NCBI RefSeq assembly: GCF_000381265.1
Contig: NZ_KB906257.1
Coordinates: 248,001-312,000 of the forward strand
Origin: Curvibacter lanceolatus ATCC 14669
GTDB taxonomy: Bacteria > Pseudomonadota > Gammaproteobacteria > Burkholderiales > Burkholderiaceae_C
Direction of reading: 5' to 3'
Length of the DNA stretch: 64,000 bases
A program made the translations under genes and the position numbers. Positions within the stretch are counted from its first letter, which is position 1. Each line of letters starts with the position of its first letter. A model generated the notes under the pieces. It did no database searches. It saw only the letters and a list, made by a program, of their open reading frames with translations, and was not told the DNA's origin. Below are positions 44,426-64,000 of the stretch, piece after piece.

Positions 44426-44426
44426 A

Positions 44427-44921: not shown

Positions 44922-44932
44922 GGGCTGGGCTC

Positions 44933-45784
44933 TCAGACGGCGACCGGGGCCTTGATGGCGGGGTGGCACTGGTAGTCCACCACCTCGAAGTCTTCGTACT
45001 GGTAGTCGAAGAGGCTGTCGGGGCGGCGCAGGATGCGCAGCGTGGGGTAGGGGTAGGGCGCCCGGGCCAGCTGGGTCTCCACTTGCTCGTGGTGGTTGCT
45101 GTAGATGTGGCAATCGCCACCCGTCCAGATGAAGTCGCCCACGTCCAGATCGCATTGCTGGGCCACCATGTGGGTCAGCAGGGCGTAGCTGGCAATGTTG
45201 AAGGGCACGCCCAGGAAGATGTCGGCGCTGCGCTGGTACAGCTGGCAGGACAGGCGGGCGCGCTCACCCGGGGCCTGGGCGGGTGCCACATAGAACTGGA
45301 AGAAGGCATGGCAGGGCATCAGTGCCATCTTGTCCAGATCGGCCACGTTCCAGGCGCTCACGATGATGCGGCGCGAATCCGGGTTGCTCTTGAGGGTCTT
45401 GATCACCTCGGCGATCTGGTCGATGTGGCCGCCGTCGGGCGTGGGCCAGCTGCGCCACTGCACGCCGTACACCGGGCCCAGGTCGCCGTCTTCGCGGGCC
45501 CACTCGTCCCAGATCGTGACACCGCGCTCCTTGAGCCAGTGGTTGCTGCTGGAGCCGGTGAGGAACCACAGCAGCTCCTGGATGATGGAGCGCAGGTGCA
45601 CCTTCTTGGTCGTGACCAGCGGAAAACCCTCGTTCAGGTCAAAGCGCATCTGGTAGCCGAACACGCTGGTGGTGCCCGTGCCCGTGCGGTCGCCCTTGGC
45701 CACACCTGTCGTATAGACGTGGCGCATGAAATCTTCGTACTGGGAACGAACGGGGCGTTGGGTCGGTTGGGGCGGTTGGGTCAT
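44933..45784 (-). CDS. thyA: Thymidylate synthase
   Basis: 283 residues. The catalytic Cys158 lies in [12 protein letters not shown]. The Arg site DRTGTGT, the folate-site [18 protein letters not shown] and the C-terminal half ([29 protein letters not shown]) are all present. It methylates dUMP to dTMP with methylene-tetrahydrofolate and forms the usual pair with folA. Confidence 0.97.
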
Positions 45785-46016
45785 GGGGCAGGCGCGCAGG
45801 TCTGTGGGTGACCGGCGATTTTAGGGGGTTCGCCGGCTGCCGGTGCATTTGGGTAGGGCCTCCACCTTCCGTCTGGATTGCCTAGCTGATCGGCAAGATG
45901 GAGCCGCTGGGCCCTCACAGAATGGCCAATCCCCGTACCGTCTGTTCGGGCAACGCCGGTGCGGGCACTCTGGCGGGGCCCGCCACCCCCGCTTTTTGAT
46001 GATGGGAGAACCAACC

Positions 46017-47426: not shown

Positions 47427-47441
47427 GTGGGGCGCAGTGGA

Positions 47442-47622
47442 TCAGCCCTCTGAGCCCTTTGACCCCTCTGAGCTCTGAGCTGCGACATCCATTTCCTTGA
47501 ACACCTCTTTGGCGGTGCGGAAGCTGTCAATGGTGGCAGGGGCGCCGCAGTAGATGGCGGTCTGCAGGAACACCTCCTGGATTTCCTCGCGGCTCACGCC
47601 GTTGGTGAGGGCGCCGCGCAGG
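47442..47622 (-). pseudogene. Carboxymuconolactone decarboxylase-like gene, 3' fragment
   Basis: The readable part LRGALTNGVSREEIQEVFLQ, then TAIYCGAPATIDSFRTAKEV, is the C-terminal third of an AhpD/CMD-family protein. Upstream of 47622 the homology stops at once and the catalytic Cys region is missing. A 137-bp stretch (47486-47622) matches 63848-63984 at the end of the window with 11 mismatches and no gap. The fragment has kept an open frame, so it is either recent or under copy-to-copy exchange. Confidence 0.8.
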
Positions 47623-47993
47623 AGCCCTTCGTGCGGAGACCGGTGGCGATACATGCGCCATGACCCGTGGCCGTGCTGAACGAGAAGGGCGTGAAGGACA
47701 TGAAGGACTTTGGGCGCCCGTGGACAAAGAACGTCCGCGTCTCTGCACTTTCCCGAAGGGGGTGCACCGACCGCCCTTAGTCCCTCCCAAGGCGCGCAGT
47801 CAAGTGAAGGCTGTCACTTGTTTTGGGGGCATACGGCAAAAATGCTTCTCGATAAAGTCGTGTCCATTCAATCCGACATCGTTCCTGGAAGAAGCCCGCT
47901 CGGGGGCTTCGACCGGTGCCCTGGTGACTGTTGGAACTTTTCCTCGCAGCGGCCCCGAAGTGCGCCCCCTTCATTCGCTTCAAGCGGACATTC
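47623..47993. other. Non-coding stretch at the left edge of the 16-kb gene block
   Basis: About 370 bases with no credible gene on either strand. A hairpin, GAAGCCC/GGGCTTC (47891-47897 and 47904-47910), has no T run. Promoter signals for the ten-gene run must lie here, but none stands out by eye. Confidence 0.5.
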
Positions 47994-48467
47994 ATGCAAC
48001 CTCATGACCCACCTTCTCGTCGGCGTTTGATTTTGCAACTCGCGGCTTTGGCTGCGACAGTGCCGTGGGCAGGAGGGCCGGTCAACGCAGCGCCTGGCTC
48101 GTCGTTTCCAAGGCGGCGCATGCAAGCCTTGGCCTCGGTCTGCACAGAGTTGACCGGCATTTCCAATGAGAGTGAAGCATTGACCCAGCAGTATTTGACG
48201 GTGCTGCTCAAAAGCCTAGGCAAGGCCCAATGGAACGCCTTGCTGAGTCTTGCCAATGCCTCGCCCAAGAACCAGCGCATGGCCTCGTTGCAGGCTCCAT
48301 TGCGTGATGTCGTGGAGTTTGCGTTGCAGTTGTGGGTCAGTGGCATGGCAGGCTCCACTGAAGTCGTCACCTATGTCGGTGCGCCCATCTGGTCCGTGCT
48401 GACATTCACCAAGCCCCCCGGGATCTGTGGCGGCGCCTTCGGTTATTGGTCTGAGCGACCGATCTGA
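47994..48467 (+). CDS. Tat-exported small subunit of an FAD-sorbitol/glucose dehydrogenase-like complex
   Basis: 157 residues from ATG 47994. The Tat signal has SRRRLILQLAAL. ELTGISNESEALTQQYLTVL, the helix ALQLWVSGMAG, VVTY and the closing KPPGICGGAFGYW match the FAD-SLDH small-subunit family. In such complexes this subunit carries the catalytic GMC subunit, which has no signal of its own, through the Tat pore. The GMC gene follows 55 bases later, fitting that role. A cytochrome c subunit usual for the complex is not present nearby. Confidence 0.8.
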   Translation: MQPHDPPSRRRLILQLAALAATVPWAGGPVNAAPGSSFPRRRMQALASVCTELTGISNESEALTQQYLTVLLKSLGKAQWNALLSLANASPKNQRMASLQAPLRDVVEFALQLWVSGMAGSTEVVTYVGAPIWSVLTFTKPPGICGGAFGYWSERPI

Positions 48468-48522
48468 TGGCGCACCTTTTCTCCCGCATTGCGCCCCTTT
48501 TCCCATTTGAAGAAACGCCACC

Positions 48523-50169
48523 ATGAACAAGTCTCTGGAGAAAGATCTGACGGCTGACGTCGTCGTCGTGGGGGCGGGTGCTGTGGGCAGCATGATGGCC
48601 TGGCAACTCGCACAGAAGGGCGTCAAGGTGTTGTTGATTGACGCCGGGCCTCGCATTGAGCGTGCCAACGCGATACAACACTTTTTCGCATCCGCTGAAA
48701 AGGGCCCGAACTCACCCTACCCCAGTCAGCCGTACGCGCCGCACCCCATGCATCCGCAAGACCATCTGGTGCAGGCAGGCCCCGCCGTCTTTGGCGGCAG
48801 TTACCTGCGCGGCGTCGGTGGAACGACCTGGCATTGGACGGGGTTTTCTGCTCGCTTCAGGCCCAATGACTTCCGGACGAAGTCTTTGTTTGGCGTTGGC
48901 GTGGATTGGCCAGTCGGGTACGCGGATCTGCAAGAGCTTTACCTTTTTGTGGAGAAGCAGTGGGGCACTGCCGGCGATAGCGCGTTCGACCAGGGAGGTC
49001 CTCGCGGTGGAGCACCGTTTCCCCTGCCGAAGGTGCCGATGACCTACGCAGACACGCTGATCCGCGACGCCCTGGCCCCCCTGGGGTACACCGTTGCGCC
49101 GTTTGCCCATGCGCGCAATTCCGAAGTCTTCGATGGGCGCCCAGCGTGTTGCGGCAGTTCCAGCTGCGCCCCCATCTGCCCGATCGGCGCAAAGTACGAC
49201 GCCAGCGTGCATGTCGCCAAAGCAGAAGCCGCTGGTGTGCGGGTGGTGTCGGAGGCGCTCGTCGAGCACATCGAAGTGGGACCGGATCAACTGGTGACCG
49301 GCCTGCGCGTGCGTGGATCGGATGGGCAGCGTGCTGTGGCAACGGGCCGTGCCTATGTGATTGCAGCCCATGCCATTGAGACGCCGAGTCTGTTGCTGCG
49401 TTCCGCTCAGGCCAATGCCCCGCAGGGGGTTGCCAACCGCAGCGATGCGGTTGGGCGCTATTTGATGGGCCAGGTGGACCTGGACACGCGCGCCCTGACC
49501 CGCGAGCCGATCTACACCTACCGTGCCCCCACGACCACGGCGGGGGTGCTGGAACTTCGCGACGGTCCAACGCGCAGCGAGCATGGCGCGATCGGCACCT
49601 CCTTCCTCAATCGCGGATGGCGGACCGCGCTGGGTCCCATGCAGCGTTCTGCCCATTTGATCAGGGCCGGGTTGCGTGGGACCGATCTGGCCCGTCGATT
49701 GAGCGATGAATGTGCACGGGAACTCGCCATCAACACTTCCGTGGAAACCTTGCCTTCCGCAAGCAACCGGGTGGTGCCCGACGCCGAACTGCGTGATGCC
49801 AGCGGTATGCCGCGACCGCGTATCCAGTTCACCATTGAAGACTACACCTTGCGTGGCATCGAGAAGGCCAGGGAGCGCCATGCGGCGATCACGAAAGCAC
49901 TGGCTTGCACGGACATCGAGACCGACACTCCTTCCGTGGCCTCCGCGATCATCGCCGGCACGGCACGAATGGGTACTGACGTGCTCACTTCGGTTGTGGA
50001 TCCATTCTGCCGAAGCCACGATCACGCCAATCTTTTCATTGTGGGCACTGCCAATTTTCCCACCATGCCCATCAATGCACCCACCCTCACGGCGGTGGCC
50101 TTGGGTCTTCGGGCGTTGCCCTCCCTCCAGGCCGATTTGACCGCGGGACGTTTCCCTCTGTCTGCCTGA
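48523..50169 (+). CDS. GMC oxidoreductase (FAD) with 3Fe-4S-type cysteines, catalytic His replaced
   Basis: 548 residues. Rossmann motif VVVVGAGAVGSMMAWQLAQK near the start, YLRGVGGTTWHWTG for FAD contact, and C-C-x4-C-x3-C at 209, 210, 215 and 219, the spacing of the iron-sulfur cluster in FAD-glucose dehydrogenase alpha subunits. Near the C-terminus, GTARMGTD and INAPTLTAVALGLRA are present. The His normally three residues before the first Gly is Ile476, while the partner Asn518 is kept. No signal peptide; export with the small subunit is likely. It oxidises an alcohol or sugar, if active. Confidence 0.87.
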   Translation: MNKSLEKDLTADVVVVGAGAVGSMMAWQLAQKGVKVLLIDAGPRIERANAIQHFFASAEKGPNSPYPSQPYAPHPMHPQDHLVQAGPAVFGGSYLRGVGGTTWHWTGFSARFRPNDFRTKSLFGVGVDWPVGYADLQELYLFVEKQWGTAGDSAFDQGGPRGGAPFPLPKVPMTYADTLIRDALAPLGYTVAPFAHARNSEVFDGRPACCGSSSCAPICPIGAKYDASVHVAKAEAAGVRVVSEALVEHIEVGPDQLVTGLRVRGSDGQRAVATGRAYVIAAHAIETPSLLLRSAQANAPQGVANRSDAVGRYLMGQVDLDTRALTREPIYTYRAPTTTAGVLELRDGPTRSEHGAIGTSFLNRGWRTALGPMQRSAHLIRAGLRGTDLARRLSDECARELAINTSVETLPSASNRVVPDAELRDASGMPRPRIQFTIEDYTLRGIEKARERHAAITKALACTDIETDTPSVASAIIAGTARMGTDVLTSVVDPFCRSHDHANLFIVGTANFPTMPINAPTLTAVALGLRALPSLQADLTAGRFPLSA

Positions 50170-50188
50170 TATTCACACGAAAGCTCCT

Positions 50189-51949
50189 ATGCTGCGACGC
50201 CATTGGTTGAGAACGACTGCGCTGATGTCCTTTGCTGCGACACTGCCGGTCAAGGCGCGAGAGGCTTTGCGCAAGCCCGGCGATGCGGTGATCGGTGGAT
50301 CTGGCAGGTATCAGCGCATCGTCCGAAGCATTCGCGACACTTTCCCGTCCCCTGTTCGATCTCAGGCGGCAGACAGCCGACTGTCGCGCCTCATGGCATT
50401 TGCGATGTCGGAGTACGAAAGGCGCAAGTCCCACCGGACCTATCTGGGCACCCGTGGTGCGCTTGACTATGCCGGCGCGCGGCGTGAACGCATCGGCGAA
50501 TCACTGGGCGATGCTCGGAGCACGATCCGGGAGACCGCACGCTATCTGGAAGGTCAGTACACCTGGAGCCATCCCAACGTGCACCGGCTTCACGGATCGG
50601 CCACCTCCGTGTCGATCATTGGCCAGTTGTTCGGCTCGATCATCGACCCCAACACGGTCTGGGACGACCTGTCGCACAAGGCGGCCGAAGCCGAAGTGCG
50701 GGTATCCGCCATGTGTGCGGCGCTGGTTGGGTACGAAGCAGACAAGGCGCTCGGTTTGTTCACCTTTGGGGGAACTGGGACCACCCTTTACGGCATCAAG
50801 GTAGGGGCCGAAATCGCGCAGCCGGGCTTGTTCAACGAGGGGCTGCGACAACCCTTGCGGGTGTTTGGCTCGGACCTGGCGCACTACGCGAAACTCAGCG
50901 CTTCCGCCTGGCTGGGGCTCGGCGCTCAAGCCGCAGTGTCCGTGCCCACCGGGGATGACAACTCGATGGATGTGGTCGCGCTGGAGAAGGCCTTGCGCCA
51001 GAGCATCGAAAAGGGCGAACGGGTCGCCGCGATTGTCGTCACCATGGGGACGACGGATGCCTTCGGCATTGATGACATTGCTGCGGTACATGCCCTGCGC
51101 AAGCGGCTTGTTGAAGAGTACCGACTCGACTACACCCCGCACCTGCATGCCGACGCCGTCATCGGTTGGGCCTACGCGGTTTTCAATGACTATGACTTCG
51201 GTGCAAACCCGCTCGGTATTCCCAACGACGCCTGTTCGTCGCTCGAGGTGGTCCGGCAACGCATTCGGCATTTGCATCTGGCTGACTCTTTGGGCATCGA
51301 TTTCCACAAGAGTGGCTACACGCCCTATGCGTCAAGCCTGTTCCTTGCGCGCGATGCCCAACTGCTCAATACCATTCGGCGCGACAAGGTGGCCATGCCG
51401 TATTTGTTCCAGTTCGGCGAATACGACCCAGGCATTTACACACTGGAGTGCTCGCGCTCCGGCGGGCCTGTCCTGGCAGCGCTGGCGAACTTGCTGATGC
51501 TTGGCAAAGACGGCTACCGAGGCTTGCTCGGTCATTGCATCGAGATGTCGAATCTCTTGCGCCAGAAGGCACGCACACTGCCCTGGTTGACGGTGCTCAA
51601 CACCGGGAACCACGGTGCAGTGGTCGTGGTCCGTGTCTACCCGGATGGCGTGGATGCCGACAAGAGTTACCTGTCGGAAAAGGAAGGCGTCGCCAACCGC
51701 GATGCGCTGGCTCGTTACAACGACTTCAACAAGGCGGTCTACCTGGCAACCCGGGGTGCAGCAGAAGCCGGTGAAAGCTCTGTGTTCGTGCAAACCAGCC
51801 GTTACCGAAATACCGTCTACGGAGAGCCCATCGTCGGGATCAAGGTCTTCACTTTGTCTGCTTTCACCGACTCTGCCTCCGTAGATGCCGCCATCGCGGC
51901 ACTGCAGGCAGCCCGCAAGAAGGCGGCGAGCGGACTGAAATTCGCCTGA
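50189..51949 (+). CDS. PLP-dependent group II decarboxylase with Tat-like export signal
   Basis: 586 residues. N-terminus: RRHWLRT followed by a hydrophobic stretch to VKA, a Tat-like signal. The PLP fold has TFGGTGTTLYGIK near 192-204 for phosphate, HADAVIGWAY with Asp322 for the ring nitrogen and DFHKSGYTPY with Lys374 as the Schiff-base residue. The closest families are glutamate/tyrosine-type decarboxylases, which are normally cytoplasmic. Export would need a folded, cofactor-loaded enzyme, which is what Tat carries. It starts 19 bases after the GMC gene. Substrate unknown; an aromatic or acidic amino acid is possible. Confidence 0.83.
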   Translation: MLRRHWLRTTALMSFAATLPVKAREALRKPGDAVIGGSGRYQRIVRSIRDTFPSPVRSQAADSRLSRLMAFAMSEYERRKSHRTYLGTRGALDYAGARRERIGESLGDARSTIRETARYLEGQYTWSHPNVHRLHGSATSVSIIGQLFGSIIDPNTVWDDLSHKAAEAEVRVSAMCAALVGYEADKALGLFTFGGTGTTLYGIKVGAEIAQPGLFNEGLRQPLRVFGSDLAHYAKLSASAWLGLGAQAAVSVPTGDDNSMDVVALEKALRQSIEKGERVAAIVVTMGTTDAFGIDDIAAVHALRKRLVEEYRLDYTPHLHADAVIGWAYAVFNDYDFGANPLGIPNDACSSLEVVRQRIRHLHLADSLGIDFHKSGYTPYASSLFLARDAQLLNTIRRDKVAMPYLFQFGEYDPGIYTLECSRSGGPVLAALANLLMLGKDGYRGLLGHCIEMSNLLRQKARTLPWLTVLNTGNHGAVVVVRVYPDGVDADKSYLSEKEGVANRDALARYNDFNKAVYLATRGAAEAGESSVFVQTSRYRNTVYGEPIVGIKVFTLSAFTDSASVDAAIAALQAARKKAASGLKFA

Positions 51950-51978
51950 TGACTTTCCATTTTTCACAGAGGTTCCCC

Positions 51979-52749
51979 ATGGCCCTGTCTTCACTCTGCA
52001 CCCGCATGAATTTCATGGCACGGCGTTTCGCCATGATCGCGGGCCTGGTTCTGCCACTGGCCTTGCTCGGGTCGCCTGTGCATGGCCTCGAGCCTGCCAA
52101 GGCTCCGCTTGAGATTCCGGCCCAACTGTTCGCTTTGACCCACCCGATCGGGCAGCAGCGCCTCATCGAAAGCAGCTATCGCCAAGCGTACTGGCCGCTC
52201 GCGGCCTATTTTGAAACCCAGCGCAATCAGGCTTACTGCTCAGTGGCGACTTCTGTGGTGGCCTTGAATGCCCTGGGCGTAGCTCGCCCAATGACGGGCC
52301 TGTATCCGGACTACCGCTTTTTTACCCAGCAGGACTTTTTTGAGGGGGTGGATCCGCGCATCGCCCAGCCCGAGGTGGTGGCCAAGGAAGGCATGACGCT
52401 GGCCCAGCTTGGACAGGTTCTTGCCTCCCAGCCCGTGCGGGCTGAGGTCATCTTTGCCGATACGCTCGATCTCAGCCAGTTGCGCCTGCTGCTGATGAGG
52501 CACTTGCGGGAGCAGGACCGTTTTGTACTGTTCAACTTCAATCGTCGCATTCTCGGCGAGGCTGGCGGTGGGCACTGGTCACCCCTGGCGGCCTATCATG
52601 AAGCGAGCGATTCGGCTCTGTTGATGGATGTAGCCCGTTACAAATATCCGCCCGTGTGGGTGCCCTTGGTGGAGCTGCTGCAAAGTGCACAAGACCATGA
52701 CAGCGTGAGCGGCAAGGCTCGCGGCATGATCGTGCTCAGTGGGCGTTAG
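51979..52749 (+). CDS. Phytochelatin synthase-like cysteine protease, exported
   Basis: 256 residues from ATG 51979 (AGAGG upstream; the frame also opens at 51949). Signal peptide with ARRFAMIAGLVLPLALL. The papain-like triad is Cys87 (in QAYCSVATS), His199 (in GGGHWSPL) and Asp217 (in LLMDVARYKYPP); spacings of 112 and 18 residues equal those of plant and cyanobacterial enzymes to within one residue. Bacterial single-domain members cleave glycine from glutathione. Here the enzyme would act outside the cytoplasm on glutathione or another gamma-glutamyl-type peptide. Confidence 0.86.
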   Translation: MALSSLCTRMNFMARRFAMIAGLVLPLALLGSPVHGLEPAKAPLEIPAQLFALTHPIGQQRLIESSYRQAYWPLAAYFETQRNQAYCSVATSVVALNALGVARPMTGLYPDYRFFTQQDFFEGVDPRIAQPEVVAKEGMTLAQLGQVLASQPVRAEVIFADTLDLSQLRLLLMRHLREQDRFVLFNFNRRILGEAGGGHWSPLAAYHEASDSALLMDVARYKYPPVWVPLVELLQSAQDHDSVSGKARGMIVLSGR

Positions 52750-52755
52750 AACTCA

Positions 52756-53829
52756 ATGGCCTTCATACGAGATATTGCAGCGGGCCGAGACCACAGCCTG
52801 GTGCTGGGTGTCAACGGGCGTCTGCTGGCCTGGGGCGGCGACGGCACAGGGCGATTCCCGCCTCCCGCCAACGTGTGTTCCGTGCCCATGCCGGCGTCGT
52901 CTGCGATCGTGGTTCGCACCCCGTCGCCCCTTCAGCAGGTCAGTGCCAGTGGCGGGACCAGCTTGGGCCTGGACGAGCGCGGATTGCCCTACCTTTGGGG
53001 CGCGAACCGGGCTGGCATTGGCGGGCGTCTGGCGCACATCCTGCACGAAAGCCCGCAGGCGCTGAAAGGCCTGCCTCCGATTGCGCGGCTGCACAGCAGC
53101 GAGTTCCTTTCACTTGCGTTGACGCGTGATGGACGCCTGTTTGCCTGGGGGCTGGTCAAGCATGCGACGCAGGTGAGCAACGACCAACCTTCCATGGTCC
53201 GCGGATTGCCCACGCTGGCGCAATGCGCGGTGGGCGGCTCGCATGTGCTGGCGATCGATCAATCCTGCGGGCTTTGGGGCTGGGGCGCGAACGCGGCGGG
53301 CCAACTTGCGCAGGCCCATCTCCAGGACGAGGACAGTCCGGTGCGCATCCGGGGAGTTGGCCGTGCGCAGGCGGCGGCGGCGGGCCCCAGCCACAGTCTG
53401 GCGATCGATGCCGATGGGAAGGTGTGGGCATGGGGGAGCAATCAGCATGGCCAACTGGGTTGTCGCGAGGCCGCTTACAGCGACATACCGTTGTGCGTCC
53501 GGCTGCCTGAGAGGGTCGCGAAGATCGCGGCCGGCATGTACGTGTCCTATGGCCTGGGCGTATCGGGGCGGCTCTATGCCTGGGGTTGGAATGCACGGGG
53601 CCAACTTGGGCAGGGTGATGTGCTGCCCCATCAGGGCATCTTGACGGTCGCGCTGCCTCGTCGCATACGGCAAGTGGTCTCCGGACAGGGGCATGTATTG
53701 GCCTCCGACGGTGAACAGGTCTGGGCCTGGGGTGATAACACCAGCGGCCAGCTTGGCCGCGAGGGGGGGCATAGCGGCATCCCGAAGCCTCTGCCCGCGG
53801 TCGGCCCAGCATTTCCCCTCCCCACCTAA
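52756..53829 (+). CDS. RCC1-type seven-blade beta-propeller protein
   Basis: 357 residues. Seven repeats can be counted, each ending in a W-G or G-Q-L-G pattern: LLAWGG, YLWGANRAG, LFAWGL, LWGWGANAAGQLA, VWAWGSNQHGQLG, LYAWGWNARGQLGQ and VWAWGDNTSGQLG. No signal peptide is evident, unlike its neighbours, so it may stay in the cytoplasm or be carried by a partner. It is probably a protein-binding platform or inhibitor-like scaffold. It lies 6 bases after the protease gene, so translation is coupled. Confidence 0.84.
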   Translation: MAFIRDIAAGRDHSLVLGVNGRLLAWGGDGTGRFPPPANVCSVPMPASSAIVVRTPSPLQQVSASGGTSLGLDERGLPYLWGANRAGIGGRLAHILHESPQALKGLPPIARLHSSEFLSLALTRDGRLFAWGLVKHATQVSNDQPSMVRGLPTLAQCAVGGSHVLAIDQSCGLWGWGANAAGQLAQAHLQDEDSPVRIRGVGRAQAAAAGPSHSLAIDADGKVWAWGSNQHGQLGCREAAYSDIPLCVRLPERVAKIAAGMYVSYGLGVSGRLYAWGWNARGQLGQGDVLPHQGILTVALPRRIRQVVSGQGHVLASDGEQVWAWGDNTSGQLGREGGHSGIPKPLPAVGPAFPLPT

Positions 53830-53845
53830 CCCACTGAACTCACCC

Positions 53846-55528
53846 ATGACTCACCCACCTTCCCGCCGAAATTTCCTGAACGTCAGTTGGCAACTCGGTG
53901 TCGGGGTCATGGTTTCCCCCGTGCTGGCCGCCTGCGGTGGGGGCCAGACGACGCAGGAAACCTTCGTTGAGCCGCCAAGAATCAAGGCAGCGGATGGTGT
54001 TCTCGACTACACCTTGCGCATGGCCTATGCCGATTTGCAGATCGACGGCAAATCAGTTCACTTGCGGACCTACAACGGCATGATTCCGGCCCCCACACTG
54101 CAAGTGCGGGCTGGGGATGTGTTGCGCCTGCGGGTCGAAAACGATCTGCCGCCGAATCCCGCCAGCGCCGAGCCTGTCGAGCACCTGCGCTATATGAACA
54201 GCGCGAATCTGCACACCCATGGCTTGCACGTCTCGCCAAAGATGGTGGGTCCTGGGGTGTTCGGAGATTACGTCGTGGATGGCCCAGCGTCTGCCGTCCA
54301 ACCCGGTGCGGTGCGCCAGCACGAGTATTCGATCGTCAGCGATCACCCCATCGGAACCTCCTGGTACCACCCTCACTTGCACGGTTCGACTGCCATCCAG
54401 GTGGGCAGTGGCATGGCGGGGGCCATCCTGATCACGGGCGATCTGGACGATGTGCCAGAGATCGCCGCGGCACGTGACCGTGTCATGATTTTTCAGGCCC
54501 CTGTCTTCGACGCGGACGGCCGGCTCGAAAGCTTCTCGCAGGTGACAGCCCCTGATGCTGAGCCCCCTTTTCTCATCAACGGGGTACGCCGCCCGCGGTT
54601 GGTGCTGTCTCCTGGCGAGGTACAACGCTGGCGTCTGGTCAACGCCGGCATTGCCAACTACCTGAATCTGGCATTGGATGCTCACGACCTGCACCTGATC
54701 GCACTGGATTCCTGCCCACGGCGACAGGCGCAGGTCTACTCGGCGCAAGCCGATGCCGGTCTGGTACTGGCACCGGGCAATCGAGCAGATATTTTGATCA
54801 AGGCGGGGCCTCCTGGGCGCTACCTGCTGCGCACCAAACCCTATGACATGGGTTTTCCAAACCCCTTGGCGGGTGATGTCCTGGCCGAGTTGGTGGTCGA
54901 GGGTGCGTCCATGAACATGGCGCTGCCGACGGCGGATCTTCCCGTATCGCAGGTGCTTCGCCCCATCACGGACGATGAGCTGGCCGCACATGGAGGCCTG
55001 CGCCGCAAGGTCGTGCTGCGTTCGGTTTTCAATGAGAACGGTGATCCCTTGAGCGCAGCCCCAGCGGTTGACGCGCTTGACCATCCTGGAGATGAGTTGT
55101 CCCAATGGCAATACCAGACAGATGGCACCTTCTTCGCCGATACGGCGTTCACGGTGGGTGTTGGCGACGGCACGGCTTCGGCAACACCGGTCATGCCGCA
55201 GCGATTTGCGCCGTTTCAATCACACCGGGCGACCCGCCAGACCGTCGCGCTGGACAGCGTTGAAGAGTGGACCGTCTACAACATGAACGCGGTTCAGCAC
55301 CCCTTTCACATCCATATCAACCCATTCCAGGTCGTCAAGATCGACGGTTTGCCGGTCGAGCCCTACTGGGCGGACACCATCGGATTGCCCAAGGGGGGCA
55401 CGGCGCAGGTGCCCACATCCGTGACCTTCCGTACCCGCTTCTCCGATTTCACGGGCCTATTCGTCATGCATTGCCACATCCTGGCCCATGAGGACATGGG
55501 CATGATGCAGCTTGTGGAAGTGACGTGA
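53846..55528 (+). CDS. Tat-exported multicopper oxidase
   Basis: 560 residues from ATG 53846. The signal has SRRNFLNVS and ends in VLAACGGG, so it is Tat-type with a possible lipobox. All four copper segments are intact: HTHGLH (about 122-127), WYHPHLHG (about 173-180), HPFHIHINPF (about 485-494) and HCHILAHEDMGMM (about 541-553). It oxidises phenols, amines or metal ions and reduces O2 to water. The Met after the last segment suggests a type 1 site with Met ligand. It could be the terminal electron acceptor for the preceding enzymes. Confidence 0.93.
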   Translation: MTHPPSRRNFLNVSWQLGVGVMVSPVLAACGGGQTTQETFVEPPRIKAADGVLDYTLRMAYADLQIDGKSVHLRTYNGMIPAPTLQVRAGDVLRLRVENDLPPNPASAEPVEHLRYMNSANLHTHGLHVSPKMVGPGVFGDYVVDGPASAVQPGAVRQHEYSIVSDHPIGTSWYHPHLHGSTAIQVGSGMAGAILITGDLDDVPEIAAARDRVMIFQAPVFDADGRLESFSQVTAPDAEPPFLINGVRRPRLVLSPGEVQRWRLVNAGIANYLNLALDAHDLHLIALDSCPRRQAQVYSAQADAGLVLAPGNRADILIKAGPPGRYLLRTKPYDMGFPNPLAGDVLAELVVEGASMNMALPTADLPVSQVLRPITDDELAAHGGLRRKVVLRSVFNENGDPLSAAPAVDALDHPGDELSQWQYQTDGTFFADTAFTVGVGDGTASATPVMPQRFAPFQSHRATRQTVALDSVEEWTVYNMNAVQHPFHIHINPFQVVKIDGLPVEPYWADTIGLPKGGTAQVPTSVTFRTRFSDFTGLFVMHCHILAHEDMGMMQLVEVT

Positions 55529-56850
55529 AACATCCTGCCGAAGCGAATGACCGCGCGTCGCCGCTCGGGATCGAGCCCCCGTTTCCTCAGGGGGGGAGTT
55601 TCGCCATCGCTGCAGCCTGCATGTTGGCCGCTGTCGCTCTGCCGTTGTTGGGCTGGGCCACGGCCACGCAACTTGCCCCAGGGCTTGTGCTGGCGCTGCT
55701 GGCAGGCTTGTGGATGTTGTCGTCAACACCTTTTCTGCTTCCCCCTTTGCTGGCACTCTTGCTGCTCTGCTTGTTCGATGTTGTTCCTTCGGCAGACTTG
55801 ATCAGGGCGGCCTCGGGCGACGCTGCGCTGTGGGCTTTGGCTTCATTGATCCTGTCGCAGGCGGCCAGACAAAGTGGGCTGCTGGGCACCTTGTTCGTCC
55901 ATGCCGCCGGGCGAGCTGCGCCGGGCAGTGGGGGTCGTGCGATGGGGGCTGTGATCTGGTTGGCTCTGGCGCTGGCGCTGCTTCCGTCGCCGGCGCAGGC
56001 CGCCAGATGGAGCGAGAGTTTTCGTGCGGCCTCAGGGCTGTCCCTTCGAGCAGGCCGCGAACTGTCGGGAGCCGCACATCTGCTGGCGCGGCTCGCTTGG
56101 CTGCCTGCCCACCCAGCCAACCTGGTGGCAATAGGCCTATTGCCTTCGGGAGGCCTGGATCGTTTCGTCGCCCTGCACTGGCTGCTTCAGGTGTGGCCGT
56201 TGCTCGCCCTCGCCTTGGTGCATGGGGCGGCCGCCCAGTGGCTGTCAGCGCGACCCCCCCGACATCCGGAATCGGCTCACTTGATCTCTGCGCAGATCAA
56301 GGACAGGTTTGCCCTTCACGGCGTGGCAGGCATTGGCTTGGGGCTGGCTGTGATGACGGTGCTTCAGCCTTTCCATGGACAGGCCCCCGGACAGGTGGCG
56401 CTGTTGGGTCTGGTCATGTTGTTTGCGCTCCGATGGGTGCCCGCTGGCAGATTTCACCCGTCGATCGATTGGGAGGTGTTGATTGCAGTAGGGCTGTTGC
56501 CGGGCCTGATAGCAGCGCTGGGCTTCTTGCTGCCGGAAGCGGCGGTGTCTCTGCCACTGGCCGCCACAGCCTTGCCACTGTTGCTGGTTTTGCGGGCCCT
56601 GTTTCCTGCTCTGGCAGCGGTCAGCCTGGCCTTCGTCATTGTTGTTCCCTGGACGGGGCGTTTGAGCGCAGATCTGTTGACTACGGCGCTGCCGGTGTTG
56701 GTCTCGCTGCACATTGCCGAACTGGTTCTGGTGTGTCCTGGCGCCGGTGATCGTGGCGTCGGTTGGCAGGGCGTTCTCCAGGCGCTGAGGCGTCCCTGGA
56801 CGTGGCTTTGGGTCGGGGCGTACTACCTCTGGCTTGGCTGGATCCCATGA
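55525..56850 (+). CDS. SLC13/DASS-like polytopic membrane protein
   Basis: 441 residues from GTG 55525, which overlaps the oxidase stop. About eleven hydrophobic segments after a polar N-terminus of 25 residues. Layout and segments such as LARLAWLPAHPANLVAIGLL and SLAFVIVVPWTGRLS resemble the DASS/ArsB ion-transporter superfamily, but the paired S-N-T motifs are poor. It might be a transporter half or a receptor-like relative. The next gene begins inside its stop codon (ATGA). Confidence 0.6.
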   Translation: MKHPAEANDRASPLGIEPPFPQGGSFAIAAACMLAAVALPLLGWATATQLAPGLVLALLAGLWMLSSTPFLLPPLLALLLLCLFDVVPSADLIRAASGDAALWALASLILSQAARQSGLLGTLFVHAAGRAAPGSGGRAMGAVIWLALALALLPSPAQAARWSESFRAASGLSLRAGRELSGAAHLLARLAWLPAHPANLVAIGLLPSGGLDRFVALHWLLQVWPLLALALVHGAAAQWLSARPPRHPESAHLISAQIKDRFALHGVAGIGLGLAVMTVLQPFHGQAPGQVALLGLVMLFALRWVPAGRFHPSIDWEVLIAVGLLPGLIAALGFLLPEAAVSLPLAATALPLLLVLRALFPALAAVSLAFVIVVPWTGRLSADLLTTALPVLVSLHIAELVLVCPGAGDRGVGWQGVLQALRRPWTWLWVGAYYLWLGWIP

Positions 56851-57953
56851 TGGGGGTCTTTCGCGGTCCAGTTGTGGGTGTGCTGGCGGGCGTCTCGTGC
56901 TGGCCGAGACGCTTGTTGCTGAGCGCTTTCGTCGTGCTGGCGAGCAGCCTGCTTTGGAAAGGGGCGCGTCGGCCGGCCGTGCTGGTGGTGCACAGTCAGA
57001 GCGAAGGGATTCCCTGGACCCAGGGTATTGATGCCGGGTTTGATGCGGTGTTTGGTGTCCGCAAGGAAGTCCGGTTGCAGCGCATTTACCTGAACGCCCA
57101 TGACACTCAGCGGGTCGCCGACCAAGTCAACAGGGCGCACGGCTTCATTGCCCGCTGGCGCCCGGATGCGTTGATCACCGTGGATGACTTCGCACAACTC
57201 GCCGTCGGCACGCGCTACGTCGACCAGGTGTCGCCGCAGGTGGTTTACAGCGGTATTGAAGATGCTGGACGTTCCCTGGCGACCCGTGCTGCCTCCAACG
57301 TCAGCGGTATTGTGGAGCGCACGCCTTGGGCCGTGGTCGAGCGCACGCTGCTGAGGCTTGCCAGGCCGCCAGATGGCTCTGCGCGGCAGGCCAATTCAGG
57401 CCGACCGCTGCGCGTCGCCATGATCAACGATGGTGGCGCCGCGTCTGATGAGGAAGCGCGAGGCTTCGCTCTGCACCCCTGGGCGCACGCGGTACCAGTT
57501 GGGGTTTGGCGTTGTCAGACCCTCGCTGAGTGGCGCACGGCCCTCCATGAGATAGCACACCGGGCCGATCTGGTGGTGGTGGGTGATTACCGGGCGATAC
57601 CGGTACCAGAGGGCACCAATGCGCCGATCTGGACGAAGCAGTTGGCGACGCAGGCTTTGGATGCGTTGCCGCAACCGATGGTGGCGCTCTCGTACTACGC
57701 GGTTCGAGATGGCATCCCGATGGGGGTGCTGCCTTCGCCGATGGAACAAGGCGCGGTCGCCGCACGCTATGCTTTGCGTGCTCTCTCGGGCTCATCGGCT
57801 GGTTCACCCTTGTTGCCGCAATATTCCGTCACATCGGAATTCGCGCTGGTGGTCAACCCTGAATCGATGGCGCAACGCCGACTGGCCATCGGTGCCGTCG
57901 ACGCCTATTACGCGCGGCTTTCAAGCCGGATGCTGGGGAGTGGTGGGCGGTGA
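56847..57953 (+). CDS. Anchored periplasmic binding-protein-like protein (ABC_sub_bind type)
   Basis: 368 residues from ATG 56847. The membrane anchor is at about 19-35 (LLLSAFVVLASSLLW). The two-lobed fold then begins with AVLVVHSQSEGIPWTQGIDA and continues with RPDALITVDDFAQLAVG, VVYSGIEDAG and, in lobe two, LRVAMINDGGAASDEEARG and ADLVVVGDYRAIPV. This matches DUF534-type substrate-binding proteins, which often lie beside transporters or sensors. Here it is wedged with overlaps between two SLC13-like genes. Confidence 0.68.
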   Translation: MMGVFRGPVVGVLAGVSCWPRRLLLSAFVVLASSLLWKGARRPAVLVVHSQSEGIPWTQGIDAGFDAVFGVRKEVRLQRIYLNAHDTQRVADQVNRAHGFIARWRPDALITVDDFAQLAVGTRYVDQVSPQVVYSGIEDAGRSLATRAASNVSGIVERTPWAVVERTLLRLARPPDGSARQANSGRPLRVAMINDGGAASDEEARGFALHPWAHAVPVGVWRCQTLAEWRTALHEIAHRADLVVVGDYRAIPVPEGTNAPIWTKQLATQALDALPQPMVALSYYAVRDGIPMGVLPSPMEQGAVAARYALRALSGSSAGSPLLPQYSVTSEFALVVNPESMAQRRLAIGAVDAYYARLSSRMLGSGGR

Positions 57954-59698
57954 AAGGAACTCTGCAGGCACATCCCTTTTGGCGCAGTCTGGACCTCTCG
58001 ACGCGTCAACTGCTCACCCTTGGCTTGCGACCGCTGCAATGGTCGGGGTCGCACGAACTGCAGCAGCTCAGCCAGGGCGAACTCGTGATTGGTTACTTTG
58101 CCCATGGGGGCGTGCTCACGGTGAATGCAAGCACCTTGCTGGCGCAGACAGCGCAGGCTTGCGTCATACCCGATGACGCGGGTCATGGGTGGAGGATTCC
58201 CAGTGACCTTCTGCAACCCTTGCTTGACGGCCAAGAGTCAAGCCAAAGCGAGCTGGCGCGAGCTTGTTCCGCACCTTTCGTGATACCAGAGGTGCCTGGA
58301 CCCGCTCCAGGAGATGAACGCACAGACCCGTTCTCCGGGGCTTTCACGGTTGGCTGGCTCATGGCAATTGCCTTTGCGTTGTTGGCCTCTCTGGTGTGGG
58401 GCAACACGCCTGCGCTCAGTGCGTCTTCGGTTCAGCGGCTGCATTTCCTGGCGGCGCTGGCCTCGGGCTTGTGCATCTGGATTTTCAACCTTGCCCCACC
58501 CTTTGTTGGCGCCTTGTTGGCACTGCTGCTGATGGTGGCGGGCAGTGGCCTACCGCCTGAACTGGCGTTCTCAGGCCTGGCCAGTGGTAGCTTTTACCTG
58601 TTGCTGGGCATGCTGGGCGTCAGTGCGGCTGTCCAGCAGTGCGGGCTGGTGGCACGCCTGCTGTCGGCGGTGCTCAGGCATTTGCCCCGCGGAGCCAGGA
58701 CTGTGCAGGTCAGTGTGTTGTTGATCGGGGTCCTCATGTCGGCATTCATTCCCAGTACCTCTGGGCGATTGCAGCTGATCACCCCCATGGTCAATGCCTT
58801 TGCCCGACCTGGCCACCGATCTGCGCTCGCGTTTGCGGGCTTGTCCGGTTGCACCTTGTTTTCGACCGCATTTCTGTTGGGCAATGCTGGCAACTTCATT
58901 GTGCTGGGTATTTTGCCGGCGCATTGGCAGCCCCACGTGAATGGGCTGATGTGGTTCCGGGGCGCTGCAGTCTACGTGGGGGTGCTTGGCGCCTTGTTGG
59001 CCGCGACGCTGTTGTTGCAGTCCTTGGATTCCGCGGGGGCCAGGTCGCAGACAGCGGTTCCTGATCACCCATTTTCTGCCGACGAAGGCATCGTCGCCCT
59101 GGCGCTTTGTTGTCTCACCTTGGGACTCGGTCTTGGCAATTTTCACCACATCGAGACCTCCTGGTTGACGCTGTTCGTGTTCTTGCTCCTGCTGGCCACC
59201 GGTGTGCTGTCCTCGTCCGGACTGCGCAGCGCCATTCATTGGCCCATTCTCATTTATCTGGTGTGCACGGTGGGGTTCGCTCGTGGGTTCGCATTCACTG
59301 GGCTGAATGAGTGGATTGGCGCCCATCTGGGGGTGCTTACATCGCTCATGCGCGGTGGTCAGACACAGTTTCTGTTGTGGCTCATCGCCATCGTATTGCT
59401 GATGCGGTTGTTGTTGCCTGCCGTGGTCTGTGTGACCACGATTTGCGCTGTGATGATGCCGTTGGCCGATTTGTTCGGCTTGAATCCCTGGGTCATTGGC
59501 TTCGTCGTGCTGACCGCCAGCGAGGTCTGGTTCTTCCCGCATCAAAGCACCGACTACCTGTTGTTTCGTGAGTCGACCGGGCTGGACTCTGGAGAGCGAA
59601 CATGCTTGCTTCGCAACAACACCCTCATCCAAGCCTGCAGGGTACTGGCATTGGCCTTGTCGATTCCCTATTGGCAGCATTTGGGGTATGTGCAATGA
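57950..59698 (+). CDS. SLC13/DASS-family transporter with extra N-terminal soluble domain
   Basis: 582 residues from GTG 57950. The first ~130 residues are soluble (FWRSLDLSTRQLLTLGLRPL, then YFAHGGVLTVNASTLL), perhaps a degenerate cyclic-nucleotide-like or binding domain; not recognised. A 12-segment transporter follows, with the two family re-entrant motifs: FIPSTSGRLQLITPMV (about 264-279) and LLLPAVVCVTTICAVMMP with WFFPHQSTDYLLF near 525-537. It imports a carboxylate, sulfate or related anion with Na+ or H+. It overlaps both neighbours by four bases. Confidence 0.78.
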   Translation: MKGTLQAHPFWRSLDLSTRQLLTLGLRPLQWSGSHELQQLSQGELVIGYFAHGGVLTVNASTLLAQTAQACVIPDDAGHGWRIPSDLLQPLLDGQESSQSELARACSAPFVIPEVPGPAPGDERTDPFSGAFTVGWLMAIAFALLASLVWGNTPALSASSVQRLHFLAALASGLCIWIFNLAPPFVGALLALLLMVAGSGLPPELAFSGLASGSFYLLLGMLGVSAAVQQCGLVARLLSAVLRHLPRGARTVQVSVLLIGVLMSAFIPSTSGRLQLITPMVNAFARPGHRSALAFAGLSGCTLFSTAFLLGNAGNFIVLGILPAHWQPHVNGLMWFRGAAVYVGVLGALLAATLLLQSLDSAGARSQTAVPDHPFSADEGIVALALCCLTLGLGLGNFHHIETSWLTLFVFLLLLATGVLSSSGLRSAIHWPILIYLVCTVGFARGFAFTGLNEWIGAHLGVLTSLMRGGQTQFLLWLIAIVLLMRLLLPAVVCVTTICAVMMPLADLFGLNPWVIGFVVLTASEVWFFPHQSTDYLLFRESTGLDSGERTCLLRNNTLIQACRVLALALSIPYWQHLGYVQ

Positions 59699-60633
59699 CG
59701 CGTCTGTGGCGAATGGCTTGGGTGGTCTGGTTCATGTTGCTGGCCGTTGCGGCAGTGTGGGTCAATGCCGGCAGCCGGCGCATCTTCATATTGCATGAGG
59801 GGCGCGCAGACCAAGTGACGTCACGCGCGTTTTTCAGCGGAGCCGATAGCGTTCTGCGGGGGCTTTCGCATCTGAAGGCCCGTCACCAGTACCTCGGTCT
59901 GGGTCTGGACGCCTGCCGACAAGCCCTGATACAGCTGACGTCATTTCACCCCGATGCCGTGATTGCAGAAGGCCCCCAGGCGCGTGAATGCGTTGGCGAA
60001 TGGCACAACGAGCAGGCACAGCGCATTTTTGAACCTGCGACCGGTGCGGCCACGAACGGTAAAGAAGCCTTTGTTGCGGCCTGGGCGACCTTGCTGCGTG
60101 AGCTGGTGTCTGGCAGTGGGCCAGTCACTTTGCTGCATGGGGACGACCGTCACAGCCTGGCGGAGCGAGACCTCCTGGCGCAAGCGGTGGCCATGGCAGG
60201 ATTTGAAGTGCGCTTTGTCGAATTCAAGACCTCTGCTGCGCCTGACTCTGCCTGGACCCTGCCAGATGCGCTTCTGAGCCAGACAGAAGGCGCGTTGGTG
60301 CTTGGCCGCATTGGGGGAGGGGGCGCAACCGAAAGCAGTGAAAAGGCCTGGCGCACCTTGTTTTCCAAACTCCACGAGGTGACCTCGGAGCCTATTTTGT
60401 CGACCCGGCTTGACAGTGTGTTTTGGGGGGCTGACATGGCCCTTGACGAGGCGCCGGAGCAGCGTGGCGAGCAGATGGCGTTGAGTGCATGGCGGGGCGG
60501 CCGTGAAGAAACGATTCCGCCTCTCGAAATGGCTGTGGCGTTGCGCAGTGCGTTTGCCGAGCGAGTGGCGACGACATTGCCGCAGGTCTATCTGGCCAGT
60601 GCACGGCTTTCCGGGCTTCTGGCAGCACCATGA
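59695..60633 (+). CDS. Second anchored periplasmic binding-protein-like protein
   Basis: 312 residues from ATG 59695. N-terminal membrane helix (WVVWFMLLAVAAVWVN), then a lobed alpha/beta domain: RRIFILHEGRADQVTSRAFF, SFHPDAVIAEGPQARECVG, GPVTLLHGDDRHSLAERD and GALVLGRIGGGG. It is shorter than and not obviously identical to the protein at 56847, but with the same architecture. It overlaps the SLC13 gene by four bases. It probably presents a ligand to that transporter or to the sensor kinase downstream. Not a named family to me. Confidence 0.6.
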   Translation: MTRLWRMAWVVWFMLLAVAAVWVNAGSRRIFILHEGRADQVTSRAFFSGADSVLRGLSHLKARHQYLGLGLDACRQALIQLTSFHPDAVIAEGPQARECVGEWHNEQAQRIFEPATGAATNGKEAFVAAWATLLRELVSGSGPVTLLHGDDRHSLAERDLLAQAVAMAGFEVRFVEFKTSAAPDSAWTLPDALLSQTEGALVLGRIGGGGATESSEKAWRTLFSKLHEVTSEPILSTRLDSVFWGADMALDEAPEQRGEQMALSAWRGGREETIPPLEMAVALRSAFAERVATTLPQVYLASARLSGLLAAP

Positions 60634-60938
60634 ACGGCGGCACCTTGATCACAAAGCGATGGGTGGCGGGTTCGCTTGTGAGCCAAGGCTTGCAGCCATC
60701 CGGTGACAGGGAATCGCAGTCAGGAGGCCCGTGGGCGCTTGATCGCGAGACATCTCACGCGTTGTCGCTGCTCAGGCCAGCGTTCCACGGATATCCCCGG
60801 CTTTCGGGGCGATACCCGACAGGCGGGTTGATAATCCCCCAGTTTCTGTGCAATAGGGGGGCCGTGACCCTGCTTGGCGTTGGCGACGCCATTTGTGCAT
60901 TTGACGGCTGATTCGCCCCAGTCCCCACCCTTGCCACT
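60634..60938. other. Gap between the ten-gene run and its two-component genes
   Basis: About 305 bases. A frame is open here (60630-60911, plus strand) but its composition is not protein-like. No tRNA, strong hairpin with T run or clear promoter box is seen. The gap probably holds the promoter of the regulator genes. Confidence 0.5.
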
Positions 60939-61622
60939 ATGCCAACCCCAGCGCCTTCTACCCAGATTCGGGTTGCCCTTGTCGAGGACGATGTCGAGGT
61001 TCAACACGCCATCGTGAGTGCCATTGAGGCCTCTGCCGATTTGTGCATGGCCTGCCTTGCCAACACCCGGGCTGAAGGTCTGCTTGCTCTGCAAGGTCAG
61101 GCTGCAGACGTCTTGCTGGTGGACCTGGGGCTGCCGGACGGATCCGGCTTGGACGTGATTCAGGCTGCCAGACACCTGTGGCCCACCTGTGCGGTCATGG
61201 TTTGCACCACCTTTGCCGACGAAGCCCACGTCATGAAGTCGCTGGAAGCAGGGGCCTCTGGCTATTTGCTCAAAGACGGCGAGGCGGGCGACATGCTGCG
61301 CGAAATCCGGAGCCTGTATGCCGGCGGCAGCCCCATCAGCCCCATGATCGCCCGTAAGATCTTGACGCACTTTCGCAAGCAGTCCCTGACCAAAGCGCTG
61401 GAGCCTGCAGGTCGGCAGGGCAACATCCCCTCAGTGCTGTCCGGGCGGGAGACGGAGGTGCTGGAGTTGATCACCAAGGGATTCACAGCTGATGAGATTG
61501 CCAAGGTCATGCAGGTGTCTACGCACACGGTGCAAACCTATGTGCGCCGCATCTATGCCAAGCTGAAGGTCAACTCCAAGGCTGAAGCCATTTACGAAGC
61601 CCGATACCAGGGTCTGGTATGA
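60939..61622 (+). CDS. NarL/LuxR-family response regulator
   Basis: 227 residues. Receiver domain: acidic pocket at Glu16-Asp18, phospho-acceptor Asp62 in LLVDLGLPDGSG, and Lys in GYLLKDGEAG. C-terminal LuxR helix-turn-helix: LSGRETEVLELITKGFTADE, IAKVMQVSTHTVQTYVRRIY, AKLKVNSKAEA. It is partnered with the sensor kinase that starts 17 bases later. Its likely targets are promoters at 47.6-48 kb and at its own gene. Confidence 0.93.
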   Translation: MPTPAPSTQIRVALVEDDVEVQHAIVSAIEASADLCMACLANTRAEGLLALQGQAADVLLVDLGLPDGSGLDVIQAARHLWPTCAVMVCTTFADEAHVMKSLEAGASGYLLKDGEAGDMLREIRSLYAGGSPISPMIARKILTHFRKQSLTKALEPAGRQGNIPSVLSGRETEVLELITKGFTADEIAKVMQVSTHTVQTYVRRIYAKLKVNSKAEAIYEARYQGLV

Positions 61623-61638
61623 CGGCGTCTTGGCGCCC

Positions 61639-63603: not shown

Positions 63604-63833
63604 TCGCACCGCGCCCCGGCTTCCACGGCGGCTGCTCGGGTTCCGCCATGCCAGTTGGATCGGCGGTCGGAAAACGCTGGTTTCAACACCCCACCGGCGC
63701 GCACAGCTTGGTCGAACCGTTTGCGCGTTGTGCGAGATCGCAAGGCGTCGATCCCCCCGACAGCAGCCAGGTCGCCTGGCCGCTCAGGGCCGGGGTGAAA
63801 TGGAGCACAACCCCCCTGTGGAGGGGCTGAATC

Positions 63834-64000
63834 TCATCCTGGTTGGGCATCCACTTCCTTGAACACCTCTTTGGCGGTGCGGAAGCTGTCGATGGCGGCC
63901 GGGGCGCCGCAGTAGATGGCGGTCTGCAGAAACACTTCCTGGATCTCTTCACGGGTCACGCCGTTGGTGAGAGCGCCGCGCAGGTGCAGCTTGAGCTCGT
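63834..64000 (-). CDS. Carboxymuconolactone decarboxylase-family protein (5' part outside window)
   Basis: Only the C-terminal 54 codons are visible: ELKLHLRGALTNGVTREEIQ, EVFLQTAIYCGAPAAIDSFR, TAKEVFKEVDAQPG. In the beta-ketoadipate pathway such proteins decarboxylate gamma-carboxymuconolactone, but many relatives act otherwise. The same 3' end, 92% identical, is found truncated at 47442-47622. The 230 bases between the kinase stop and this gene (63604-63833) hold nothing I can identify. Confidence 0.85.
   Translation of the reverse strand, partial: ELKLHLRGALTNGVTREEIQEVFLQTAIYCGAPAAIDSFRTAKEVFKEVDAQPG

Follow-up and report, generated by a model that had tools for sequence, protein, structure and literature searches.

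The closest described relatives of the gene cluster reported here are the dehydrogenases of the FAD-GDH/FDH family, for which part of PMC9727119 gives a layout of catalytic, small and triheme cytochrome subunits, the small subunit being a hitch-hiker protein needed for secretion through the twin-arginine translocation (Tat) pathway. Some further components also have described counterparts: the Alr0975-type phytochelatin-synthase-like (PCS) enzymes are peptidases that take glycine off glutathione and its conjugates, and one cyanobacterial PCS-like enzyme also makes phytochelatins (as given in parts of PMC7411734 and PMC3561135). Here we describe a ten-gene cassette at positions 47994-60633 of a 64,000-nucleotide stretch (the window) of the 6.8 Mb genome of Curvibacter lanceolatus ATCC 14669; all positions are those of the whole window. 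From its sequence we call it a variant of an FAD-GDH/FDH-like dehydrogenase in which a copper oxidase would occupy the electron-acceptor place.

We propose, tentatively and at a probability of roughly 45%, that this is a mostly extracytoplasmic oxidation cassette built around an FAD-GDH/FDH-type dehydrogenase, with a multicopper oxidase (MCO) as acceptor and with steps of trimming, decarboxylation and uptake added. The gene content, its conservation, the intact active-site motifs, four leader motifs and a split in the tree of the GMC catalytic subunit are directly supported. The preliminary description of this DNA knew of no described system with this gene set, and we too found no description of the combination in open-licence PubMed Central, which is weak evidence of absence.

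The dehydrogenase core and its copper oxidase

Motifs and leaders were counted over six orthologues, the leaders being judged by a motif and hydropathy script. The GMC catalytic subunit matches PDB 6A2U over its full length (E 5e-131), lacks a leader, as expected for the FAD-GDH/FDH family, and has the cysteine cluster motif CCGxxSCxPICP in all six orthologues, from which it would carry a 3Fe-4S cluster. Its small subunit, the sole PF12318 match in the genome (35.1 bits against a cut-off of 24.2), has a twin-arginine (RR) leader in six of six and a Cys145 that is invariant in five aligned sequences. The cassette thus shares with FAD-GDH/FDH (PDB 6A2U; 7W2J) the full-length catalytic family with its FAD and cysteine-cluster motifs, and a small subunit of the PF12318 kind with a Tat signal and a conserved cysteine. 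The third defining feature, the triheme cytochrome subunit, is absent from it: CxxCH occurs in none of the ten cassette proteins and five flanking proteins tested, and among the frames of at least 100 residues in 40001-64000 the single CxxCH falls within the GMC gene, in a frame of 132 residues. In place of the triheme cytochrome an MCO is encoded, together with genes for a PCS-like peptidase, a pyridoxal phosphate (PLP) enzyme, an RCC1 propeller and transport.

All six MCO orthologues contain the motifs HTHG, WYHPHLHG, HPFHIH and HCHILAHEDMGMM, which we take to be copper ligands. The preliminary description of a Tat-exported MCO stands as to the RR leader and needs one correction, since a lipobox follows the RR in six of six, predicting a lipoprotein. 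The protein resembles laccases, and its matches in phages (11 records) are all below 60% identity, with the five listed at 24 to 27%.

Two distant architectures have part of this gene set in common with the cassette. Plasmid searches with the MCO and with the PCS met at a Salipiger plasmid that carries, in order, genes for an MCO, a small cytochrome c, a PCS, a small subunit, a GMC protein and a membrane protein with no Pfam match, four of these (MCO, PCS, small subunit, GMC) being shared with the cassette. The same six-gene order is found in G1083 and G1293, from two different families of one other class of the phylum, presumably the Alphaproteobacteria, to which Salipiger and Skermanella belong; the cytochrome has one CxxCH in the two examples checked. 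A GMC profile matched 8 of 240 genomes of that class at E <=1e-80 (9 places), and two of the eight have a Salipiger-type operon, which is not an unbiased rate because the class was picked in the knowledge that G1083 carries one. In the second architecture, a triad of small subunit, GMC and MCO genes is present on two Skermanella plasmids (L057 8355-12229; L058 8328-12205), upstream of glyoxylate-pathway genes; those for glyoxylate carboligase, hydroxypyruvate or 2-oxo-tetronate isomerase and GlxR stand next to it, a hint that the substrate on these plasmids is of the glycolate or C2 type. No frame with at least two CxxCH was seen in the stretches examined around the Salipiger, G1083, G1293 and two Skermanella loci. 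Seven plasmid loci are of the classical type, with a cytochrome gene beside that for GMC (three CxxCH in six of the seven, one in L078), and tblastn detected no MCO at any of these seven.

The phylogeny of the GMC proteins follows this partition. A midpoint-rooted tree of 22 rows has a branch with 100/100 support that sets the 11 MCO-linked proteins, without exception (six, three and two by architecture), apart from the seven cytochrome-linked proteins and from four for which no MCO and no frame with at least two CxxCH was seen in the examined stretches; support for joining the Comamonadaceae group to the Salipiger group is only 79/75. (GMC rows L071, L073 and L075, which are distant, and the long MCO row L088 were dropped before second trees were made, and L072 and L074 are in no tree.) Among 575 plasmid records matched, the three GMC proteins nearest that of the window (Skermanella and Salipiger, 46 to 49% identity) are all MCO-linked, and the fourth, at 40.5%, is not. 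The separation of MCO-linked from cytochrome-linked proteins gives more weight to the suggestion of the preliminary description that O2 is the acceptor by way of the oxidase. The simplest reading is that the GMC lineage switched partner once and came to use the MCO as its acceptor, the MCO itself perhaps having been replaced later; as we read it, the MCO would take the place of the triheme electron-transfer subunit and electrons would pass to O2 outside the cytoplasm.

In the mechanism that we propose, the small subunit would carry the FAD/3Fe-4S catalytic subunit out via Tat, and the lipid-anchored MCO would replace the absent triheme cytochrome c subunit. Oxidation of a hydroxyl group would send electrons from FAD through 3Fe-4S to type-1 copper and on to O2 at the copper cluster, the transfer between the two enzymes being direct or, in the Salipiger-type form, by way of the small monohaem cytochrome. 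The PCS-like peptidase would remove glycine from glutathione or a glutathione conjugate, the Tat-type PLP enzyme would decarboxylate an amino acid, or a gamma-glutamyl or aromatic product, and the SLC13/binding-protein pairs would import the products. The 3Fe-4S content, the electron route, the location of the PLP enzyme, the substrates and the direction of transport are what we infer in this scheme.

Several observations weigh against it. The transfer from GMC to MCO is a prediction from gene content, and the Salipiger-type operon keeps a cytochrome, by which electrons could reach the respiratory chain, leaving the MCO to oxidise copper or phenols. The 11 MCO-linked GMC rows amount to three groups only, six of the rows being close orthologues, and the 11 others were hand-picked from plasmids and one class. 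The best MCO tree does not unite the proteins of the three architectures (A, B and C) in a single clade (p-AU 0.0515 if so constrained), nor those of A and B (p-AU 0.088), so that recruitment of an MCO may have happened repeatedly; and from the four GMC loci with neither partner it follows that a missing cytochrome does not by itself imply an MCO partner. Among the accessory genes, PLP and RCC1 have no counterpart in the distant forms and may be there for another purpose, the leader of the PLP enzyme has only a weak hydrophobicity (1.1 to 1.75 over 15 residues), and one genome keeps the PCS gene alone (below), indicating that PCS can act alone.

Part of the same evidence bears on an alternative that we consider doubtful, in which the GMC protein delivers its electrons to the quinone pool or to a cytochrome from another locus, and the MCO, as an independent laccase or cuprous oxidase, shields the exported enzymes or oxidises some phenolic product. 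In its favour are the small cytochrome c of the Salipiger-type operons, the likeness of the MCO to laccases, the lack of a single MCO clade in the best tree and the GMC loci with neither partner; however, there is no cytochrome in the Comamonadaceae cassette or the Skermanella triads, and MCO linkage follows one GMC branch at 100/100.

Conservation, spread and insertion site

The preliminary description had given a ten-gene operon with no gap above 55 bases and with five junctions that touch or overlap, and these coordinates are confirmed (Table 1): all ten are on the + strand, the widest gap is 55 bases, and the five junctions are 51949/51949, 55528/55525, 56850/56847, 57953/57950 and 59698/59695. 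Seven of the proteins score above Pfam cut-offs (small subunit, GMC, PLP, PCS, RCC1, MCO and the second SLC13 protein), and no family does so for the first SLC13-like protein or either binding-like protein. Against the orthologues of Curvibacter HBC61 all ten genes have dN/dS of 0.05 to 0.21 and look to be under purifying selection, with dS (1.2 to 2.4) near saturation. A scan that gave 0 sigma-70 promoter sites where 2.0 were expected, and 11 sites resembling terminators against an expected 12.6, is uninformative as to transcription units, and no Rfam family reaches its gathering threshold in 44000-64000.

Table 1. Features of the cassette and of the repeats that flank it
Feature	Position	Strand	Evidence and remarks
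Small (gamma-type) subunit, RR signal, PF12318	47994..48467	+	Pfam; invariant Cys in KPPGxCGG motif
GMC dehydrogenase catalytic subunit	48523..50169	+	PF05199; FAD motif GAGAVG; CCGxxSCxPICP cluster motif; no signal peptide seen
PLP-dependent group II decarboxylase	50189..51949	+	PF00282; DFHK lysine; MLRRxWL leader
Alr0975-like phytochelatin-synthase-type (PCS) cysteine peptidase	51949..52749	+	PF05023; hydrophobic leader at the N terminus; C, H and D motifs conserved
RCC1-type propeller, without signal peptide	52756..53829	+	PF25390
Multicopper oxidase (MCO)	53846..55528	+	RR leader and lipobox; copper-ligand motifs present
SLC13-like membrane protein A	55525..56850	+	hydropathy gives 9 hydrophobic segments; unmatched in Pfam
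Periplasmic binding-like protein A	56847..57953	+	N-terminal hydrophobic anchor; CD0873/TrpX-like fold (predicted)
SLC13/CitMHS transporter B	57950..59698	+	Pfam CitMHS; non-cassette relatives start with cNMP-binding domain
Binding-like protein B	59695..60633	+	N-terminal hydrophobic anchor; divergent relative of binding protein A
Left repeat copy, 140 bp, partial 3' end of carboxymuconolactone-decarboxylase-like gene	47486..47625	.	Flanks insertion
Right repeat copy	63848..63987	.	Inside gene running beyond window end

A pattern-based scan of named genome contigs, which detects close relatives only, yielded five loci, and six distinct cassettes are now recognised: those of the window, Curvibacter sp. 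HBC61 (counted with G331 as one locus), Simplicispira metamorpha, S. psychrophila, a Comamonas metagenome-assembled genome (MAG), NTP6, and G283. A contig of an uncultured 'Variovorax' MAG (L015) has 99.3 to 100% protein identity over four genes, the fourth cut by the contig end, and was taken as a near-identical fragment of the window cassette rather than as a distinct locus; it and HBC61 are the nearest named relatives by cassette. Curvibacter and Simplicispira belong to the Comamonadaceae, as we presume Comamonas and the window's genome do.

All ten genes stand in identical order in five of the six loci, from several genera, and the first six do so in all six. The genes clearly travel together, contrary to the refuting case that the preliminary description had named, and the recurrence of content and order in other genera indicates clustering beyond chance. 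Its ten-gene set is a real unit, but a modular one. At the NTP6 locus (L018) the six enzyme genes alone are present, followed by an opposite-strand gene pair that we assume to be cyanophycin-synthetase-like, which splits the unit into two halves, one of six enzyme genes and one of four transport genes, and the distant relatives described above share only three or four genes.

With the PLP enzyme as tracer, the cassette is rare in its family: it was found in 3 of 399 genomes of the family and 2 of 9 of the genus (the window's own genome counted in both), and in that genome only among 399 from the order and 398 from the phylum. The cassette is patchily distributed and probably moves horizontally. 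A thyA and a dhfr-type gene adjoin it in the window and HBC61 only and are absent beside the other four.

Within the genus the insertion site lies between thyA and a gene for which we use the name carboxymuconolactone-decarboxylase-like on our own assumption. The cassette of G331 is between the same two flanking genes as that of the window, and G194, a sister genome by its ThyA (99.6 to 100% identical), and G786 have no cassette gene at the thyA site. In G268 (L097 4314-5066) an intact PCS gene stands alone at the cassette site, its DNA 87.6% identical to the PCS gene of G331. We read these states as a block gained and lost at one site, with PCS once kept by itself, the direction being undecided.

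The two copies of the direct repeat are 91% identical, and between them is also, directly downstream of the cassette at 60939-63603, a pair of genes for a LuxR-type response regulator and a 7TMR-DISM histidine kinase. This pair was rejected as part of the cassette, as tblastn at E 1e-5 gave no match to it at the other cassettes, over stretches that continue beyond it for about 9 and 10 kb in G331 and G283 and for only about 1.3 kb in L016, L017 and L019 (L015 to L019 were all covered). A DUF1254 gene at 45843 was rejected likewise, since cassette-free G194 has it too.

Accessory enzymes, transport and substrate leads

The preliminary description had assigned Tat-type signals to three proteins with copper, PLP or an FAD/Fe-S partner, and RR motifs are indeed present in all six orthologues of the MCO, the PLP enzyme (as MLRRxWL) and the small subunit. 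Its view of the system as extracytoplasmic agrees with these leaders, by which the PLP enzyme too would lie outside the cytoplasm; it does not extend to RCC1, for which no signal peptide was seen in six of six. An upstream stop leaves no space for an RCC1 leader in HBC61 and S. psychrophila, so that this protein would be cytoplasmic or a passenger of another Tat protein, and probably lacks an export signal itself. That it is a chaperone of Tat substrates is a guess.

The PCS protein scores 192 bits with PF05023 (cut-off 24.9; E 9e-57) and keeps Cys, His and Asp motifs in six of six, presumably the catalytic residues. Its only solved relative found is Alr0975 of Nostoc, to which it is homologous over the catalytic domain with the same C, H and D motifs, and from which it differs by an export leader and by its place in an operon with oxidoreductases. 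PCS genes occur in 10 of 329 phylum genomes, and G1083 alone of the nine others has GMC and MCO genes in the examined stretch; PCS is thus usually found without this system.

For the PLP enzyme the match to PF00282 is at 61 bits (cut-off 27), and HADAV and DFHKSGY are present in six of six; we take these to be PLP-enzyme motifs that include the PLP lysine. Its alignments are partial only, to aromatic amino-acid decarboxylase and to bacterial decarboxylases that we believe to be tyrosine decarboxylases. Six NCBIfam models match, all far below cut-off, the best being PanP (aspartate decarboxylase, E 1.5e-20) and the second diaminobutyrate decarboxylase, and two plasmid relatives, about 30% identical, adjoin GadC antiporters. 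A structure model was too poor to be used (mean pLDDT 45.5).

In the transport half each of the two pairs aligns by profile, with hhalign probabilities of 96.6 for the SLC13 proteins and 92.6 for the binding proteins, from alignments of only four rows. The predicted fold of binding protein A, a model of middling quality (pLDDT 71.7 as the best of five, the others 58.9 to 42.5), is matched best by 6hnj (Z 20.3 over 275 residues, root-mean-square deviation 3.9), followed by 3lft (18.4), 3lkv (18.0) and 6hni (17.8), with the next at Z 16.6; 6hnj and 6hni are both CD0873. The window protein has no match to ABC_sub_bind (PF04392), for which its L053 relative reaches 21.9 against a cut-off of 25.9.

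Relatives of binding protein A are present in 8 of 150 family genomes, the window's included, and a plasmid search with it gave no match. Five of the seven other genomes were examined (G066 and G059 were left out; the match in G014 has one internal stop). An SLC13 gene adjoins the relative in four of the five, and in the fifth the contig ends. These four SLC13 proteins (L052, L053, L055 and L056) start with a cNMP-binding domain, above the Pfam cut-off in two and below it in two, for which there was no match in the cassette proteins tested. TRAP and TTT systems are binding-protein-dependent secondary transporters. The cassette and its relatives are like them in that a membrane protein resembling a secondary transporter is encoded beside a periplasmic binding protein; they differ in that the membrane protein is of the SLC13/CitMHS type, with a cNMP-type N-terminal domain in the relatives, and in the CD0873/TrpX-like binding fold. 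The pair of cNMP-SLC13 and CD0873-like proteins is possibly an undescribed binding-protein-dependent secondary transporter.

In one genome (G121; L053 33-19764) this pair lies inside a YcaO/ThcOx peptide cluster with a C39-peptidase exporter, where several small proteins resemble one another and, with a motif like AVAGG close to their end, look like leader peptides.

The substrate leads conflict. The PCS would point to glutathione-type peptides and the fold of the binding protein to aromatic amino acids, in that CD0873 and the proteins of 3lft and 3lkv bind Tyr, Trp and Phe (part of PMC6816091). The PLP enzyme points towards aromatic amino acids by its partial alignments and away from them by its PanP match and the GadC neighbours of its relatives. 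The preliminary description had supposed that the substrate derives from an amino acid or from glutathione and that the SLC13 pair moves its product or precursor; both may be so.

Two further explanations of the cassette, both improbable in our judgement, start from these accessory genes. In the first, the proteins would tailor in the periplasm a peptide or metal-binding metabolite made elsewhere, much as pyoverdine is completed there by the Tat-exported PvdN and PtaA and the copper enzyme PvdP, with PCS, PLP, GMC and MCO each modifying one group. Tat-exported PLP enzymes are known from that pathway (part of PMC6206403), a Tat-type PLP enzyme and an exported copper enzyme are common to both systems, and the G121 pair sits within a peptide cluster. 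However, the cassette enzymes are a PF00282 decarboxylase and a multicopper oxidase, and no siderophore gene, peptide synthetase, precursor peptide or exporter was recognised in the cassette or the open reading frame lists of its flanks (the flanks not being profile-searched); the neighbours of the enzyme half differ in each genus, and the other listed SLC13/binding pairs have no such cluster by eye. The second, a nutrient or detoxification pathway in which PCS trims glutathione conjugates of phenolics, the other enzymes open them up and the transport pairs recover amino-acid pieces, would fit the described action of Alr0975-type PCS on glutathione and conjugates (PMC7411734 and PMC3561135, in part), the predicted likeness of binding protein A to aromatic amino-acid receptors and the partial alignment of the PLP enzyme to aromatic amino-acid decarboxylase, but by Pfam the cassette has no gamma-glutamyl-splitting enzyme or glutathione transferase, and the PLP resemblance is weak, with PanP as best NCBIfam model far below cut-off and plasmid relatives beside GadC.

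Bearing on the proposed extracytoplasmic oxidation

Returning to the oxidation cassette that we favour, a wider generalisation, which we put forward as unlikely rather than probable, is that some bacterial periplasmic oxidases form a class of their own, whose FAD/3Fe-4S dehydrogenase is exported by Tat and passes electrons directly to an MCO, reducing O2 to water without the respiratory chain. Individual lineages would have extended this core by a thiol-peptide peptidase, by an exported PLP decarboxylase and by a new SLC13 binding-protein-dependent transporter.

The biosensor field already uses cytochrome-linked relatives of these dehydrogenases (part of PMC9727119). If the electron route is right, the cassette would be a natural pair of dehydrogenase and oxidase that runs outside the cytoplasm on O2 alone, of interest for bioenergetics and for biosensors, and it would give a biochemical context to bacterial phytochelatin-synthase-like peptidases. 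Its transport half may in addition indicate a further kind of binding-protein-dependent secondary transporter.

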